A stretch of 62,827 bases of DNA, taken from Thermoflexia bacterium (lineage in GTDB: Bacteria > Chloroflexota > Anaerolineae > B4-G1). Positions 2,734 through 62,818 of this stretch are shown piece after piece. The notes beneath the pieces are model-generated. The model saw only the letters and a list, made by a program, of their open reading frames with translations. It was not told where the DNA came from and did no database searches. The position numbers and the translations under genes were made by a program. Numbering within the stretch: the first letter of the stretch is position 1; every line of letters begins with the position of its first letter. The stretch is taken from positions 1 to 62,827 of the forward strand of contig DUEK01000006.1 in assembly GCA_011192155.1 (NCBI GenBank), in the 5' to 3' direction.

Positions 2734-2895
2734 GTACCTTGTTAGTAAAACTCTTGCACGTTGAGCAGGGATTTTGGAACACGGAGCTTCACAGAGAAGA
2801 CGCAGAGGAACGCAGAGAAAAACTCGGTGAATCTCTGTGTCCGCAAAGCCTCTGCGGTCTCTGTGTCTCTTTTTGACTCTGGCTTGTCCAGGTTA
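2734..2895 (+). repeat. R1 dispersed palindromic repeat, copy 1
   Basis: About 162 bp, from GGTACCTTGTTAG to the conserved end TGGCTTGTCCAGGTTA. The body is an imperfect palindrome built of CACAGAG/CTCTGTG words (left arm CACAGAGAAGACGCAGAGG, right arm CCTCTGCGGTCTCTGTGTC). Other full copies are at 16421-16701 and 31289-31450. Its 3' end lies five bases before the next gene, so the translation-initiation region of that gene is repeat-derived. Confidence 0.8.
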
Positions 2896-5686: not shown

Positions 5687-6241
5687 TCAATCTTCCAACA
5701 GTGCTCTGGTAAAGTAATGGACCAATCCCTGAGGCCACCTCGTCCGCTCGTTGTACTTGACCCCGTCCAGATCGGCCTTGTCCAGATCGGCCTCGCGCAG
5801 GTCTACTCCGCGCAGGTCAGTCCCGCGCAGATCGACCTCGCTCAGATTGGTCCTGTATAGATCGGCGCCGCGCATATCAGCCTTGCGCAGATAGGCGTTA
5901 AAGAGAAAGGCTCTGTTCAGGTCAGCCCCGCGCAGGTCGGTCTCGTGCAGCCGGCTCCGCTCAAGTCGGCCCCGCTCAGATCAGCTTTACTCAGGTCAGC
6001 TTTACTCAAGACAGCTCCCTGGCTCAGCTTGTCGCCACGTAGATCGGCCTCACGCAGGTCGGCGCCGAATAGGTTGGCCTTTGTTCAGGTTGGCTTCGCT
6101 CAGATTGGCTCCGCGCAGGTCGGCCTTGAACAGGAATATCTTGCTCAGATTGGCCCCGCACAGGTCGGCCCCCTGCAAGTCGGCTTGGCCAAAGTCTCGC
6201 TTCCCATTTTGATACTGTGCGATAAGTGTTTGTCCCTTCAT
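5687..6241 (-). pseudogene. Pentapeptide-repeat protein with two frameshifts
   Basis: Reading from ATG 6241 gives A(D/N)LxG-type pentapeptides (GADLCGANLSKIFLFKADL), but the frame is lost near 6079-6082 and regained near 5950. Comparison with the intact neighbour shows the causes: an extra T in a TTT run (GGCCTTTGTT here, GGCCTTGTT there) and a missing G (TGCAGCCGG here, TACAGGCCGG there). With both corrected the product is about 184 residues, starting MKGQTLIAQYQNGKRDFG and ending HYFTRALLED. It is a shorter paralog of the N-terminal third of the next gene. Either it decayed after duplication or the two homopolymer indels are sequencing errors. Confidence 0.75.
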
Positions 6242-6371
6242 GTGATTGCTCCATGCTTGTCATTAGGTTGCGAGCTTTTCCGTGGCTCTCAATTTTCTTC
6301 TGGCCCTGGCTCATGATTCACGTTTGGTAACTACTATTCAGTCTCAGTAGATCCAAAATGTTACGACAACA

Positions 6372-6518
6372 AGACCTCGGAGGTCTCTCGAGAGCGCCTT
6401 GTCTGGGCTGTTACACAGAGTTTCACAGAGCATTTCACAGAGGAACGCGGAGAAAAAGTGTTCTTGTTGTATTCTCCGTGAGTCTCTGTGCCTTCTCAGT
6501 GGCTCTCTGTGTCCAAAC
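6372..6518. repeat. CACAGAG/CTCTGTG palindromic repeat
   Basis: The stretch 6242-6495 has no gene. It holds a perfect palindrome AGACCTCGGAGGTCT (6372-6386, cousin of the one at about 188) and, from 6411, an imperfect inverted repeat: ACACAGAGTTTCACAGAG on the left and CTCAGTGGCTCTCTGTGTC on the right, related in composition to R1. The right arm overlaps the last codons of the pentapeptide gene ending at 6496, so that C-terminus is repeat-derived. Confidence 0.6.
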
Positions 6519-8229
6519 CAGAGTAGCCTGAACAGTTATCACGTCTGCTGTTTTCTGCAACGCGTAACGTTGCGCTCCTGGGAAGCCGGGCCTGGACGAG
6601 GCGACTGAGGGCGCGCAGCAATCTTTTATTCAACTTGAAAAACAGCCTTTTCAGACCATGTTTACTCAGATCAGGCCCGATTATTTGATTCTCTTTTGAC
6701 TCTTTGTCCGGCATAATAGCACCATTCAGGTCGGCGCCCCACAGTTTGGCTCTGTTCAGGCTGGCCCCGCTCAAGTTGGCCCCGCTCAAGTTGGCCCATC
6801 TCAGGTTGCTTCCGCTCAACTCCGCTCCGCTCAGATCGGCCCCGTTCAGATTGGCCCCTCTCAGATTGGCCCGGCTCAGGTTAGCCCTTTCCAGGTCGGC
6901 CCCGCCCAGGTTGGCTTGGCGCAGGTCTGCCCCGCTCAGGTCACGGGCCGGCGCCCCGTGGGCGGCGATCTCCCAGACCAGGCGGTAGCGCTCGTCGAGC
7001 TGTGTGGTTTCATCCAGTACAGCGCCTACCAGGTAGGCGGAGCTTTGATTGGCTCTGCGCAGGTCGGCCCCGCGCAAGTTGGCCCCTTCCAGGTCGGCCC
7101 CTGCCAGGTTGGCCTCGCGCAGGTTGGCTCCTTCCAGGTTGGCCCCGAACAAGCAGGTATTTTTCAGGCCGGCCCCATTCAAGTTGGCCCCTTCCAGGTT
7201 GGCTCCTGCCAGGTTGGTTCCTTGCAGGTTGGCTCCGCTCAGGTTGGCCCTTTCCAGGTCGGCTCCTGTCAGGTTGGCTCTGCGCAGGTCAACCCCGCTC
7301 AGATCGCGGGCCGGCGCGCCGTGGGTGATGATCTCCCAGGCCAAGCGGTAGCGCTCGTTGAGCTGTGTGACCTCGTCCAATATGGCTCCCGCCAGGTAAG
7401 TGTTGTTTAGGCTGGCTCTGCGCAGGTCGGCCCCACTCAGATTGACCCCTCCCAGGTCGGCCCCGTCCAGGCTGGCTTGACGCAGGTTGGCTCCGCGCAG
7501 GTCGGCCCCGCGCAGGTTTGCTTTTTTCAAATTGGCCCCGCGCAGGTCAGCCTCGCGCAGGTCAACTCCACTCAGATTACGGGCCGGCGACCCGTGGGTG
7601 ATGGCCTCCAAGACGAGGCGGTAGCGCTCATCAAGCTGTGCGGCCTCGTCCAATATGGCCCCTCCCAGGTAAGCGGAGCTTAGGTTGACCTTGCGCAGAT
7701 CGGCCCCGCGCAGGTTGGCCCCTCCCAAATCGGCCCCGCGCAGGTCGGCCCTGCGCAGGTTGGCCCCGCGCAGGTTGGCCCCGCTCAGGCTGGTTCCGCG
7801 CAGGTTGGCCCCGCGCAGGATGGCCTCGCTCAGGTTGACCTTGTATAGATCGGCTCCACGCAGGTCAGCCTTGCGCATATAGACGTTGAAAAGAAAGGTC
7901 CTGTTCAGGTCGGTCCCACGCAGGTCGGTCTCGTACAGGCCGGCCCCGCTCAAGTCGGCCCCGCTCAAGTCGGCCTTGCTCAAGTCGGCTCTGCTGAGGA
8001 CAGCCCCCTGACGCAGTTTGACGCCGCGCAGGTCGGCCTGGCGCAGGTCGGTCTCGAACAGGTTGGCCTTGTTCAGGTTGGCTTGGCTCAGGTCGGCCCC
8101 GCGCAGGCTGGCCTTGAATAGGAATATCTTGTTCAGGTCGGTCCCGCGCAGATCAACTCCGCGCAGGTCAGACTTGGAAAAGTCGTGTTCCCCGGCCTGA
8201 TATCGCCTGATAAGCTCTTGTTCATCCAT
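6496..8229 (-). CDS. Pentapeptide-repeat protein, 577 residues
   Basis: The protein is almost entirely A(D/N)LxG pentapeptides, which fold as a right-handed quadrilateral beta helix. It has a superstructure: blocks of repeats are separated by three copies of a linker of the form LDE-TQLDERYRLVWEI-THGAPARDLSG (near residues 193, 293 and 413). The first 20 residues (MDEQELIRRYQAGEHDFSKS) form a small cap shared with the broken paralog downstream. The last 50 residues are basic, unlike the helix, and partly encoded by a dispersed repeat. ATG 8229 follows a GGAG site. The biochemical role of such proteins is mostly unknown; some mimic DNA and bind gyrase, and nothing here shows that. Confidence 0.85.
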   Translation of the reverse strand: MDEQELIRRYQAGEHDFSKSDLRGVDLRGTDLNKIFLFKASLRGADLSQANLNKANLFETDLRQADLRGVKLRQGAVLSRADLSKADLSGADLSGAGLYETDLRGTDLNRTFLFNVYMRKADLRGADLYKVNLSEAILRGANLRGTSLSGANLRGANLRRADLRGADLGGANLRGADLRKVNLSSAYLGGAILDEAAQLDERYRLVLEAITHGSPARNLSGVDLREADLRGANLKKANLRGADLRGANLRQASLDGADLGGVNLSGADLRRASLNNTYLAGAILDEVTQLNERYRLAWEIITHGAPARDLSGVDLRRANLTGADLERANLSGANLQGTNLAGANLEGANLNGAGLKNTCLFGANLEGANLREANLAGADLEGANLRGADLRRANQSSAYLVGAVLDETTQLDERYRLVWEIAAHGAPARDLSGADLRQANLGGADLERANLSRANLRGANLNGADLSGAELSGSNLRWANLSGANLSGASLNRAKLWGADLNGAIMPDKESKENQIIGPDLSKHGLKRLFFKLNKRLLRALSRLVQARLPRSATLRVAENSRRDNCSGYSGLDTESH

Positions 8230-16379: not shown

Positions 16380-16420
16380 AATGCACCTCACCACACCCTA
16401 AAGGTTTCGGGAAGCCTTTA

Positions 16421-16701
16421 GTACCTTATCGGCGAAATCCTTGCACATCAGCAATTCCCGTTATGGGGGAAAAGTCAGGTCGTAGCGCGATTTCGCAATC
16501 GCGCAGGGCGCTTTACGTGGAAAAATACACGCGATTTGGAAATCGCGGCTACAAAACGGGAATTGCTGCTTGCACATTGAGCAAGAATTTGGGAACACAG
16601 AGAAAACACAGAGGGGCATAGAGAAAAACTCGGTGAATCTCTGTATCTGCGAAGCCTCTGTGGTCTCTGTGTCCCTTTTCGGTTCTGGCTTGTCCAGGTT
16701 A
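16421..16701 (+). repeat. R1 repeat, copy 2, interrupted by an R3 element
   Basis: GTACCTTATCGG (16421) to TGGCTTGTCCAGGTTA (16701) is R1 with the 120-bp R3 element at 16449-16568 inside. Without the insert and duplicated target it matches the copy at 31289-31450 very closely, including GCAAGAATTTGGGAACACAG and the CACAGAG/CTCTGTG arms. The stretch 16380-16719 holds no gene apart from these repeats. Confidence 0.85.
16449..16568. mobile_element. R3 miniature inverted-repeat element with 9-bp target duplication
   Basis: Perfect 14-bp terminal inverted repeats CAGCAATTCCCGTT (16449-16462) and AACGGGAATTGCTG (16555-16568) are flanked by exact direct repeats CTTGCACAT (16440-16448 and 16569-16577). 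The R1 copy at 31289-31450 has the same flanks with a single CTTGCACAT (31424-31432, minus strand), i.e. the empty site. The 120-bp interior has no open frame and folds into smaller hairpins (GCGCGATT/AATCGCG). A non-autonomous transposon mobilised in trans fits best; the parent transposase is not in this window. Confidence 0.85.
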
Positions 16702-16719
16702 GGGTTTTGTACACGCGAA

Positions 16720-25940: not shown

Positions 25941-26053
25941 AGTTTTGTTCATCGCCCGACATCTCTGGATCACGAATGACACAAATGGACAGATGACACA
26001 AATTTTGCTTCGAATAATGAGAAAACATTCGTGAAATTGTATCTTTTCAACTC

Positions 26054-26200
26054 GAGTCTGGCAAATTTTCAGAATGCCCACATCTTGGGGTAGGCAACAA
26101 TAAAGGCGCTAGATATGGGGGTTCGTAGTAGCGGCTTTAGCCGCTTTTGAGCCTTTTGGACGGCTGAAGCCGTCACTACGAACAAAAACGCCAGACTCCA
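26054..26200 (-). mobile_element. R2 element, copy A
   Basis: Reverse-complement copy of the 149-bp R2 element, identical to copies B and C over about 145 bp and differing only at one terminus (GAGTCTGGC preceded by CTC instead of TG). It contains the GTTCGTAGT/ACTACGAAC stem enclosing GACGGCTTCAGCCGTC and AGCGGCTAAAGCCGCT hairpins. It lies 113 bp downstream of the helicase gene. No target duplication is visible. Confidence 0.8.
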
Positions 26201-26533
26201 GCAGTCACATCTGCGTGTATCTGCGGTTTGGTTAACTTGTCGGTTTGAGGCGTAGCTTTGTTAGACGGTTACGTCAAATTTTACTCGGCTTTCAAAGTTT
26301 GTCCTATCTCGCCACTGTTTCACTGTTGCCCTCCCAGTAATGGATTTGGAAGGTAGCAACATACCAGATTAGCAAAAAAGTGTCCAGCGTGAAACCCTAG
26401 CTCATTTATTCAATTTGAACACTACCAAGACAAGAGCAATACCCGTGAATGAATTGTGGTCAGCTACGGGCTGAAGGTCAATACGATTGTACACCATCTT
26501 TCGGCACAAATTGGTCAGAGCGCGCCGGCCCAC
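26201..26533. other. Spacer without recognised content
   Basis: Between R2 copy A and the nrdJ stop I see no gene, RNA or strong hairpin. The base composition is lower in GC than the flanking genes. ATCTGCGTGTATCTGCGG near 26209 resembles dispersed repeat vocabulary. Confidence 0.5.
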
Positions 26534-31288: not shown

Positions 31289-31450
31289 TAACCTGGACAA
31301 GCCAGAACCGAAAAGGGACACAGAGAGCACAGAGGCTTCGCAGACACAGAGATTCACCGAGGTTTTCTCTGCGTCCCTCTGTGTCTTCTCTGTGAAGCTC
31401 TGTGTTCCCAAATTCTTGCTCAATGTGCAAGAATTTCACCGATAAGGTAC
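31289..31450 (-). repeat. R1 repeat, copy 3 (R3 empty site)
   Basis: Minus-strand copy running from GTACCTTATCGG (31450) to GGCTTGTCCAGGTTA (31289). It is intact and therefore shows the ancestral sequence of copy 2 before insertion, with a single CTTGCACAT at 31432-31424. It separates era from ugd. Confidence 0.85.
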
Positions 31451-31453
31451 TAC

Positions 31454-32593
31454 TTACCCATATCCCATACGACGCAATTCTCTCTCGTCCCAGCGCCACT
31501 TTTTGCGCACCTTGACCCACAGGTCGAGATAAACCTGCCCGCCCGCCATGCGCTCAATCTCGCGCCGCGCCGCCGACCCGATCTGGCGCAACATTTGTCC
31601 TTGCTTGCCGATGATGATGCCCTTTTGAGAGTCTTTTTCGACAAAGACGTTGGCTCCCACGTAAACCACGCCGTTCTCCCGCTCCTTGAACTCTTCCACG
31701 ACGACGGCGACGGCGTGCGGTATTTCCTGGCGCATGTGGCGCAACACTTGTTCGCGGATCAGCTCGGCCCCGATCTCCCGTTCGGTCTGGTCGGTGACCT
31801 GGTCGCCGGGATAGTAGCACGGGCCTTCTGGCAGCGCAGCCACGATCAGTTCCAGCAGCTCGTCCAGGTTCTTGCCCTCGGTGGCGACCGTCATCATCCA
31901 TTCTTGATGGGATGGCGCCGCTTTCCAATACGCTTCGGTGTGCGCCTGAACTTTATCCGGCGGCAGCAAGTCCATTTTATTGAGCACCAGGATGACGGAA
32001 GCCGTCGCTGTGCTACCCTTTATATGGGAATGAGTCGCTGTGCTACCCTTTATATGGGAATGAGCCGCTGCGCTACCCTTTATATGGGAATGAGTCGCTG
32101 TGCTACCCTTTATATGGGAATGAGTCGCTGTGCTACCCTTTATATGGGAATGAGTCGCTGCGCTACCCTTTATATGAGAATGAGCCGCTGCGCTACCCTT
32201 TGCATAGGAATGGTGAGTCTGCTCTTGGATCAGCTTGGCGATGGCCCGGTCCTGCTCAGTAGGCGGCACGGAGACGTCCACCAGAAACAGCACCACGTCG
32301 GCGTCGGGGATGGCGTGGGTGGCCGTGGCGACCATCGTCTGGCCTAACTTGTGGCGTGGATGGTGCAAGCCAGGGGTATCTACAAAGATGACCTGATAAT
32401 CCTCGTGGGTGAGGATGCCCAGGATGCGGCTGCGGGTGGTCTGCGGCTTGGGCGAGACGATGGCTACCTTTTGCCCTACAAACCGGTTCATCAGCGTGGA
32501 CTTGCCAACGTTGGGCCGCCCGATGACGGCTACAAAGCCGGAGCGATGGCCTGCTGGTGTGGCATCCAGATCGTACAAGTCGTTATCCTGCAC
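31454..32593 (-). CDS. era: GTPase Era with in-frame tandem-repeat insertion
   Basis: Era binds 16S rRNA during 30S assembly. GRPNVGKST (G1), DTPGLHHPRHKLG (G3), NKMD (G4) and the KH domain with GIIIGKQGQMLRQIG are intact. GTG 32593 is chosen because it overlaps the preceding stop; an upstream extension to 32833 is antisense text of the neighbour gene. The 379-residue product is about 75 longer than usual because seven 30-bp units (32004-32213) add decapeptides of type HSHIKGS(T/A)A(T/A) between the helix ending AKLIQEQ and the G4 strand SVILVLNKMDLL. The insertion sits on a surface loop, so function is probably kept. Confidence 0.92.
   Translation of the reverse strand: MQDNDLYDLDATPAGHRSGFVAVIGRPNVGKSTLMNRFVGQKVAIVSPKPQTTRSRILGILTHEDYQVIFVDTPGLHHPRHKLGQTMVATATHAIPDADVVLFLVDVSVPPTEQDRAIAKLIQEQTHHSYAKGSAAAHSHIKGSAATHSHIKGSTATHSHIKGSTATHSHIKGSAAAHSHIKGSTATHSHIKGSTATASVILVLNKMDLLPPDKVQAHTEAYWKAAPSHQEWMMTVATEGKNLDELLELIVAALPEGPCYYPGDQVTDQTEREIGAELIREQVLRHMRQEIPHAVAVVVEEFKERENGVVYVGANVFVEKDSQKGIIIGKQGQMLRQIGSAARREIERMAGGQVYLDLWVKVRKKWRWDERELRRMGYG
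32004..32213 (-). repeat. Seven 30-bp tandem repeats inside era
   Basis: Units start at 32004, 32034, 32064, 32094, 32124, 32154 and 32184. Units 1, 2, 4 and 5 are identical; unit 3 differs at two sites (T to C), unit 6 at two, and unit 7 is the most diverged (TTTGCATAGG for TTTATATGGG). The 30-bp period keeps frame. There are no spacers, so it is not a CRISPR array. Identical units imply recent expansion by slippage or unequal exchange. Confidence 0.95.
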
Positions 32594-35835: not shown

Positions 35836-35918
35836 TCACCGCCAAGACGCAAAGAGCGCAAAGATTTTTAAGCAGGAGATCAAGAATATTCATTCGTGCG
35901 AGCTAAAATGTAAAGAAC

Positions 35919-36067
35919 TGGAGTCTGGCGTTTTTGTTCGTAGTGACGGCTTCAGCCGTCCAAAAGGCTCAAAAGCGGCTAAAGCCGCTACTACGAACCC
36001 CCATATCTAGCGCCTTTATTGTTGCCTACCCCAAGATGTGGGCATTCTGAAAATTTGCCAGACTCCA
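35919..36067 (+). mobile_element. R2 element, copy B
   Basis: 149 bp bounded by the perfect inverted ends TGGAGTCTGGC and GCCAGACTCCA. The GTTCGTAGT/ACTACGAAC stem encloses two 7-bp hairpins (GACGGCTTCAGCCGTC and AGCGGCTAAAGCCGCT), a three-way-junction fold; a further hairpin pairs CCCATATCT with AGATGTGGG. It is identical to copy C at 56459. Its right end abuts the truncated GIY-YIG gene and supplies a GTG with a few codons in frame. Confidence 0.85.
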
Positions 36068-36349
36068 GGGGTCTATATTCTCCGTTGCGCCGATGGTTCG
36101 TATTATACTGGACGCACCATAAATCTGGAGAAACGTCTGGCAGAGCATCAGTCAGGAGAAGGGAGTGACTGGACCAAACATCGTTTACCCGTTGAACTGA
36201 TGTTTGCACAAGAGATGCCGGGTGAGAACCATGCCTTTTTGGCCGAACTGCAAATCAAAAAATGATCGCGGGCGAAGAAGGAGGCGCTGATTGCTGGAGA
36301 TTGGGATATGTTGCGTTGGTTGGCCAAGAAACCCAAGTTCCGCAAATGA
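36064..36349 (+). pseudogene. GIY-YIG nuclease-domain protein, broken
   Basis: GVYILRCADGSYYTGRT with NLEKRLAEHQSG is the GIY-YIG fold of small UPF0213-type proteins, with the catalytic Tyr/Tyr/Arg. The usual first residues are missing because R2 copy B ends there. At 36263 a TGA replaces the TGG codon expected after the ELQIKK segment; beyond it the frame continues with family text (SRAKKEALIAGDWDMLRWLA) to a stop at 36347-36349. Hence there is one nonsense G-to-A change plus loss of the native start. A truncated peptide from a start inside R2 could still be made. Confidence 0.8.
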
Positions 36350-56197: not shown

Positions 56198-56378
56198 CTA
56201 TCGCACTAACAGTACCGGGCAATCCACCTCGTCCAGCAGCGCCTGGAGCTTTTCTGGCGACAGGGCAGCGCCGCTCAACACCAGCACGCCGCCTCCCTCG
56301 ACTCGCGTTGCTTGAACCAACGTGTCCACCTTTGCATCCGCCAGTCGCCGATAGTGAATCAGCAGCAATTCCCGTTTT
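56198..56378 (-). pseudogene. C-terminal gene fragment ending at an R3-like terminus
   Basis: The minus-strand frame ends GVLVLSGAALSPEKLQALLD then EVDCPVLLVR, resembling the C-terminus of universal-stress-type proteins. Upstream, the coding text stops exactly at CAGCAATTCCCGTTTT (56363-56378), an R3 terminal repeat. The gene therefore appears to have been cut by an R3-family insertion, and R2 copy C lies 80 bp further on. The partner R3 end was not found. The frame stays open to 56455, but those residues are repeat-encoded. Confidence 0.45.
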
Positions 56379-56405
56379 AGCATCATCGCCGCGTGATATG
56401 GCATC

Positions 56406-56607
56406 GTAGTAGCGACTTTAGCCGATGGATATGCAGCCCAAACGACTAAAGTCATTACTGGAGTCTGGCGTTTTTGTTCGTAGTGACGGCTTCAGCCGTC
56501 CAAAAGGCTCAAAAGCGGCTAAAGCCGCTACTACGAACCCCCATATCTAGCGCCTTTATTGTTGCCTACCCCAAGATGTGGGCATTCTGAAAATTTGCCA
56601 GACTCCA
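56406..56607 (+). mobile_element. R2 element, copy C, with adjoining hairpin
   Basis: The 149-bp R2 element at 56459-56607 is base-for-base the same as copy B (35919-36067), with ends TGGAGTCTGGC and GCCAGACTCCA. Just before it GTAGTAGCGACTTTAGCCG and CGACTAAAGTCATTAC (56406-56458) form a hairpin with related arms. From 56608 to 56727 nothing was recognised, apart from a short in-frame TCPVLVVR ending that may be chance. Confidence 0.8.
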
Positions 56608-56727
56608 GACACTACTTGCCCGGTGCTGGTGGTGCGTTAGACCTAGAATGACCATTTCATCAAATGAGGCAAGGCGATCACACTGTCACCGCTGATCTTG
56701 TTGCCCAATCAAGCGCAAAGGACTTGA

Positions 56728-61849: not shown

Positions 61850-62782
61850 CTACCGCGACGCGGCGCATTCTTCTTGCAGGATGCAGCGGGCACACTCTGG
61901 CCTGCGAGCGTGACAAACAGCCCGTCCGTGCTCGATCAGGTTGAGGTGGAAGGAATAGTAAATCTCTTCGGGGACGAGTTCCTCCAGCAGCGCGTGCGCT
62001 TTCTCGCGGCTCGTCTTTTCCGGGATCAGGCCTAGCCGGCGCGTGACGCGGTGGACGTGGGTATCCACCGGAAAGGCCGGCATCCCCAGCGCAAACAGCA
62101 GCACGATGGCGGCCGTCTTGGGCCCGACGCCCGGAATACCCAGCAGCCAGGCCCGCGCCTCCTTCAACCCCATCTCTTTGAGGAACCCCAACTCTATCTC
62201 CCCGCGTTCCTCCGTGATGCGTCGCAGCGCGCCCTGGATACGGGGCGCTTTCGTCGGCCCCAACCCCGCCGGGCGGATCGCGTCCACCAGCGATTCCTCC
62301 GGCGCGTCGCGGACGCCCTCCCAGGTGGGGAAGCGTTCCCGCAGCCGCGCATAGGCCCGGTCCCGGTTGACGTCGTTGGTGTTCTGCGAGAGGATGGTGT
62401 TGACGAGCGTTCCGATGGGACTTTGCCGTGAGCGTTCAGCCGAACGGTCGCGCGGATGCCGGGCGTGGTCGCCGTATTCAGAGAGGAGCAGGTCGTGGAT
62501 GTGGAGGATATGTTCCGTCGTCGCCGCCGTAGGGGCGCAGCGACGCTGCGCCCCTACGGCGGTCTGCGCCCCTACAACGTTTTCGTTATCCGATTGCCAA
62601 TTGGCCGGATTGTTCAAAATGTACTCGCGGGTCGCGTTCAATTCCCGCTCGTTGCGGACGATGTGCTCGTAATAATTCCGCTGCCAGACGGGTGCGCCCG
62701 GCGTGCCTCGTATCAGGTTGATGTGTTTGGTCACGGCGGATTTGTACGCCCGCACAATGGCCCCCAACGAACGCGGTGACAC
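61850..62782 (-). CDS. nth: Endonuclease III fused to a RAYT remnant through a REP
   Basis: The 310-residue frame has two parts. Residues about 89-310 are endonuclease III: IGTLVNTILSQNT, the helix-hairpin-helix LLGIPGVGPKTAAIVLLF with the catalytic Lys, FPVDTHVHRVTRRL with the catalytic Asp, and a C-x6-C-x2-C-x5-C iron-sulfur site at the end. Residues 1-68 are the C-terminus of a REP-associated tyrosine transposase (SLGAIVRAYKSAVTK, GAPVWQRNYYEHIV). Between them a REP palindrome is translated. No ATG, GTG or TTG lies in frame between the transposase part and the nth part, so nth now seems to depend on a start within the remnant (GTG 62782 or internal). Confidence 0.85.
   Translation of the reverse strand: MSPRSLGAIVRAYKSAVTKHINLIRGTPGAPVWQRNYYEHIVRNERELNATREYILNNPANWQSDNENVVGAQTAVGAQRRCAPTAATTEHILHIHDLLLSEYGDHARHPRDRSAERSRQSPIGTLVNTILSQNTNDVNRDRAYARLRERFPTWEGVRDAPEESLVDAIRPAGLGPTKAPRIQGALRRITEERGEIELGFLKEMGLKEARAWLLGIPGVGPKTAAIVLLFALGMPAFPVDTHVHRVTRRLGLIPEKTSREKAHALLEELVPEEIYYSFHLNLIEHGRAVCHARRPECARCILQEECAASR
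62529..62575. repeat. REP palindrome inside the nth reading frame
   Basis: GTAGGGGCGCAGCG and its exact complement CGCTGCGCCCCTAC flank one central base (62529-62557); a half copy CTGCGCCCCTAC follows (62564-62575). It joins the transposase remnant and nth and keeps the frame open. Confidence 0.9.
62579..62782 (-). pseudogene. RAYT transposase C-terminal remnant
   Basis: Sixty-eight codons matching the C-terminus of REP-associated tyrosine transposases (IS200-like Y1 HUH family): LGAIVRAYKSAVTKHIN, RGTPGAPVWQRNYYEHIVRN, YILNNPANWQSDNEN. The catalytic His/Tyr domain is not in the window; a REP (62790) sits directly upstream. The enzyme class moves or processes REPs, and REPs of the expected kind bound this fragment on both sides. 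Confidence 0.8.
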
Positions 62783-62789
62783 GTTGGTT

Positions 62790-62818
62790 GTAGGGGCGCA
62801 GCGACGCTGCGCCCCTAC
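62790..62818. repeat. REP palindrome, second copy
   Basis: Identical to 62529-62557: arms GTAGGGGCGCAGCG and CGCTGCGCCCCTAC with one central base. It lies just before the GTG that opens the fused frame. Confidence 0.9.

Follow-up and report, generated by a model that had tools for sequence, protein, structure and literature searches.

What is the 120-bp sequence that interrupts one copy of the repeat R1 in this 62,827-nucleotide stretch of a Thermoflexia bacterium genome (the whole stretch is called the window here), how did it arrive, and what does it carry? At that length it is too small for a transposase gene. Comparison within the source genome and with related genomes suggests, at a high level of confidence, a non-autonomous MITE moved by a Tn5-like DDE transposase encoded elsewhere, with a pair of REP palindromes as its cargo. 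The MITE is of an ordinary kind; what is instructive is its REP cargo, and its parent family is under-annotated. The case links an orphan MITE to a widespread transposase family that annotation models catch poorly, and it is a clean one for how REP palindromes spread, because related genomes have different REP pairs within one and the same TIR frame, which makes capture and hitchhiking datable and testable.

Anatomy and insertion site

The ends and flanks proposed by the sequence-only reading (14-bp TIRs and a 9-bp duplication around a 120-bp element) are exact, and the two TIRs are perfect inverted copies of each other (Table 1). R1 has about 10 substantial copies genome-wide, and its continuity around the site was read in seven: the interrupted copy, the two in the window that had been named as uninterrupted and are so, and four full ones elsewhere in the genome. 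Only one of the seven carries the 120 bp. The 120 bp are therefore a newcomer in R1, and the length of the duplication can be read directly. The window does contain uninterrupted R1, as had been stated, but as an empty site it is paralogous and does not represent the corresponding locus of a different strain.

Table 1. Features of the element, its insertion site and related copies in the window.
Feature	Positions	Strand	Basis
R1 left part, ending in 9-bp target copy CTTGCACAT	16419..16448	+	sequence, R1 copy comparison
9-bp target site duplication, left copy CTTGCACAT	16440..16448	.	
MITE, 120 bp, identical to copy at G000:C163:3221-3340	16449..16568	+	
Left TIR CAGCAATTCCCGTT, then ATG as in other MITEs and one autonomous-element end	16449..16462	+	
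GTAG-tagged REP 1 GTAGCGCGATTTCGCAATCGCG, one C shorter than most copies	16482..16503	+	
GTAG-tagged REP 2 GTAGCCGCGATTTCCAAATCGCG, inverted relative to REP 1	16530..16552	-	
Right TIR AACGGGAATTGCTG	16555..16568	-	
9-bp target site duplication, right copy CTTGCACAT	16569..16577	.	
Right part of interrupted R1	16569..16703	+	
Uninterrupted R1, paralogous empty site CTTGCACGT	2734..2895	+	
Uninterrupted R1, paralogous empty site CTTGCACAT	31289..31450	-	
Second-MITE relic: same TIR, different REP-pair interior	56363..56456	+	

The opposite history, in which R1 ancestrally held the 120 bp and lost it elsewhere by precise excision, is possible in principle across a 9-bp repeat; given that all six other R1 copies read are without the insert, and that the same element lies at dozens of unrelated sites, each with its own duplication, we consider it extremely improbable.

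Copies in the source genome

The source assembly (G000; 3.41 Mb, 178 contigs, fragmented, 83% complete) was searched with the 120-mer, giving 40 near-full-length copies (at least 118 bp at 94 to 100% identity) and 2 partial ones. The TIR 14-mer had 170 genome matches at up to one mismatch, against one for the reversed control, so the ends of the MITE are not a product of chance. Exact 9-bp duplications flanked 36 of the 53 distinct insertions examined (5 more had 1 or 2 differences); the many copies with these ends and flanks bear out the proposal of a mobile element. One identical 121-bp sequence lies at more than 10 different sites, almost every one of which has a duplication of its own, and because many copies are identical at different sites the pattern points to a recent burst of spread. 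The window copy and the C163 copy share a one-base loss inside REP 1, which indicates that this variant itself moved. Taken from sequence comparison, the element is a real MITE that appears to have been mobile recently.

Stop-free stretches of 150 codons or more covered 41% of insertion points, compared with 93% of random flank positions, and the insertions are mostly outside long reading frames. Some sit within other REP palindromes (L014 and L224, with duplications GCGAGGTAT and AGCCGCGAT). Folding of the MITE gave z values of -6.2 and -8.9, which predicts one strong hairpin if it were transcribed. In some near-identical copies of the source genome (L005, L027, L028, L030) REP 2 has its loop dinucleotide inverted from GG to CC, as if the small palindrome had flipped through a hairpin.

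The REP pair in the interior

The sequence-only reading overlooked that the core of the MITE is an inverted pair of GTAG-tagged REPs, and also that the same window holds a second MITE with the same TIR, a relic. Each palindrome of the core has a GTAG tag followed by a stem within the 5-13 bp of REPs, and such units are dispersed singly or in pairs. REP GTAGCCGCGATTTCCAAATCGCG has 89 genome matches at up to one mismatch, about 10 of them without a TIR nearby, and was found in 14 of 60 relatives, most of which lack the MITE TIR. MITEs of the source genome and of two genomes of the same family (G005 and G002) have in common only about 17 bp at each end, and the G005 interior is a different GTAG pair. 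Over 97 bp the relic has 89% identity with a complete G005 copy (L082), and it is truncated where another repeat (56457-56608) is inserted. Contig-edge ends in G005, considered as collapsed parent elements, were rejected as complete MITEs of about 119 to 122 bp.

MITEs usually arise by internal deletion of an autonomous element, and the family described below has elements of 1.4 to 2.1 kb with ends matching the MITE. On that model the MITE would be a simple deletion derivative of one such element, its palindromes parental leftovers and not captured REPs. We find this unlikely: the interior gave no significant match among about 100 loci of the autonomous family, the same REP occurs alone in the source genome and in relatives without the TIR, and other MITEs with the same ends contain a different REP pair. 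The REPs are better read as cargo of the TIR frame, because they exist independently, the interior is unmatched in the autonomous elements and the interiors vary; the composition is visible directly, and the order of events is a deduction from it. One small parasite appears to carry another.

Could the REP pair itself be the mobile unit, moved by a RAYT, with the CAGCAATTCCCGTT repeats an enlarged part of the REP or passive? GTAG REPs are typical RAYT substrates (PMC3733652), the source genome has Y1 transposase genes, including one RAYT-like ORF, and the REPs also occur alone. Copies nevertheless stop exactly at the TIR with 9-bp duplications, unexpected for Y1 transposition, and the same TIR and duplication are also found around autonomous DDE elements and around MITEs whose interiors are unrelated. 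For the 120-bp unit as a whole this explanation is refuted, and we give it very little credence overall; a RAYT could still account for the entry of REPs into the frame.

We tentatively suggest, as something rather less than probable, that fixed insertion-sequence ends repeatedly capture different REP pairs (REPINs) and spread them, so that a Tn5-like DDE transposase would disperse RAYT-system repeats and seed new REP sites beyond those reached by RAYT alone.

Autonomous elements with the same ends

The ends and the 9-bp duplication had been put forward as a signature for the parent transposase, and they led to an autonomous family in other genomes. A search of 60 genomes with CAGCAATTCCCGTTNTG gave matches in three besides the source genome. 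In G005 and G002 it marks the MITEs with other interiors; in G049, of the same class, an insertion sequence terminates in the exact 14-bp TIR, and the start of a transposase follows shortly downstream. Plasmid homologues were found with a query that joined 31 G049 residues to a presumed continuation of such a protein, used as a lead only, and all later searches used sequence from fetched loci. A profile built from these homologues recovered family members from 26 of 298 same-class genomes, where complete elements had the same type of ends and exact 9-bp duplications at four loci: L092 (1,818 bp; AATGTTACC), L093 (CTATTTGAC), L095 (CACCATCGA) and L098 (TTTCATTAG). The autonomous elements are about 1.4 to 2.1 kb long with CAGCAATTC-type ends.

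A wider survey kept 80 of 497 relatives, with exact 9-bp duplications beside CAGCAATTC-type ends at 23 of the 80 loci, so that the search for such insertion sequences was answered in Chloroflexota relatives and many other phyla. Record titles name Chloroflexi, Desulfobacterales, Planctomycetota, Acidobacteria, Bacteroidota groups, Gammaproteobacteria, Cyanobacteria, archaeal bins and others, spanning at least 10 phyla, although most are metagenome bins and single assignments are uncertain. L123 ends exactly in CAGCAATTCCCGTTTTGG and CAGCAATTCCCGTTATG, the MITE's own ends, with the TIR followed by TTG upstream of the gene and by ATG downstream.

No intact parent transposase was found in the source genome (83% complete in a fragmented assembly) or in the MITE-carrying relatives G005 and G002; the source genome and G002 have solely degenerate transposase fragments without TIRs. 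L112/L261 and L264 in the source genome were rejected as parents on both counts. L112/L261 (G000:C135:65884-66489), degenerate and TIR-less, is a fragment of a related DDE transposase and lies just beyond the end of the window. A PF01609 search of the source genome gave no match, and a text search of the literature with the TIR letters returned unrelated papers only. Full-length parents found diverge from the MITE past position 17 or so. Ends and duplications together identify the putative parent family; the exact parental element is not among the full-length elements found.

The transposase and a proposed mechanism

The family transposase is a DDE protein of 433 aa encoded by a single ORF. 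L091 and L092 passed the cut-off of Pfam DDE_Tnp_1 (PF01609), and four other tested proteins fell below it; with NCBIfam models, no family protein came near a cut-off. Pfam returned nothing for a 35-aa transposase start, and a sequence search of the PDB yielded no useful match. Both plasmid copies seen carry the label "hypothetical protein," and the family is widespread yet mostly unnamed by automatic annotation. Among 32 aligned proteins, D124 and D214 are kept in all, and glutamate stands at E332 in 31 and at E334 in 32; the spacings of the DDE residues (D124, D214, E332) are 89 and 117. At the YREK position nearly all have G/A-x2-R-x3-E-x7-K. The predicted structure (pLDDT 91) has Tn5 transposase as its best solved match (Foldseek E value, 2.7e-9; TM scores, 0.57/0.54), so the modelled fold is closest to that of Tn5 transposase. 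Judging from the family, Tn5-like cut-and-paste with a 9-bp stagger would fit the duplications.

Anatomy and comparison establish the ends, the duplications and, at the level of sequence, the link to this family; the enzymatic steps, and mobilisation of the window copy by the Tn5-like family, we infer. A transposase of the Tn5-like DDE family would recognise the 14-17-bp ends of the MITE, which would be cut out and pasted into a new site via a 9-bp staggered cut, leaving the direct repeat. The MITE would retain only the end recognition sequence of its parent, the direct parent would have CAGCAATTCCCGTTWTG ends, and the TIR frame would multiply its REP cargo.

Comparison with known systems

The IS4/Tn5 (IS50) group shares the single-ORF DDE transposase and duplications of about 9 bp (PMC2266710), and the spacings of the family fall within the D(60-110)D(100-150)E of the IS4 family (De Palmenaer 2008; PMC2266710). 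The Y(2)R(3)E(6)K motif differs, with G or A in place of Y and R-3-E-7-K instead of R-3-E-6-K, and CAGCAATTC-type ends match no subgroup in Table 1 of PMC2266710; IS4Sa (CA------T) comes closest, but at position 9 the family has C where that subgroup has T.

A REP inside a MITE has a precedent in QMITE2 of Coxiella burnetii, which is described as a MITE that has TIRs and encloses a GTAG REP; many of its copies have 9-bp direct repeats, and its short versions without a TIR are plain REPs (PMC5896051). QMITE2 is longer (150 to 190 bp; TIR, about 17 to 29 bp), and the passages of PMC5896051 that describe it name no parent transposase, whereas a parent family was found here; in contrast to QMITE2 as described there, at least two different REP pairs occur within the TIR frame here. 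GTAG REPs, REPINs and BIMEs, also known from Chloroflexi, resemble the MITE core in their GTAG tag, palindrome and inverted pairs (PMC3733652, PMC3116915). Unlike them, the pair here is enclosed in DDE insertion-sequence TIRs and would move with 9-bp duplications.

Other repeats in the window

A second repeat family of about 152 bp (26051-26208, 35917-36068 and 56457-56608; ends, CTGGAGTCTGGC and GCCAGACTCCAG) has an interior formed by an inverted pair of other GTAG REPs. Its copies show no obvious target duplication, and the 56457 copy is the one inserted in the relic MITE at 56363. Dense 15-bp-periodic repeats occupy 5746-8229, within and around a 577-aa reading frame (6496-8229, minus strand), and about seven tandem 30-bp repeats (CGCTGTGCTACCCTTTATATGGGAATGAGT) lie at 31967-32242. 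Two perfect palindromes (GTAGGGGCGCAGCGACGCTGCGCCCCTAC; 62529-62557 and 62790-62818) represent another type of GTAG REP.
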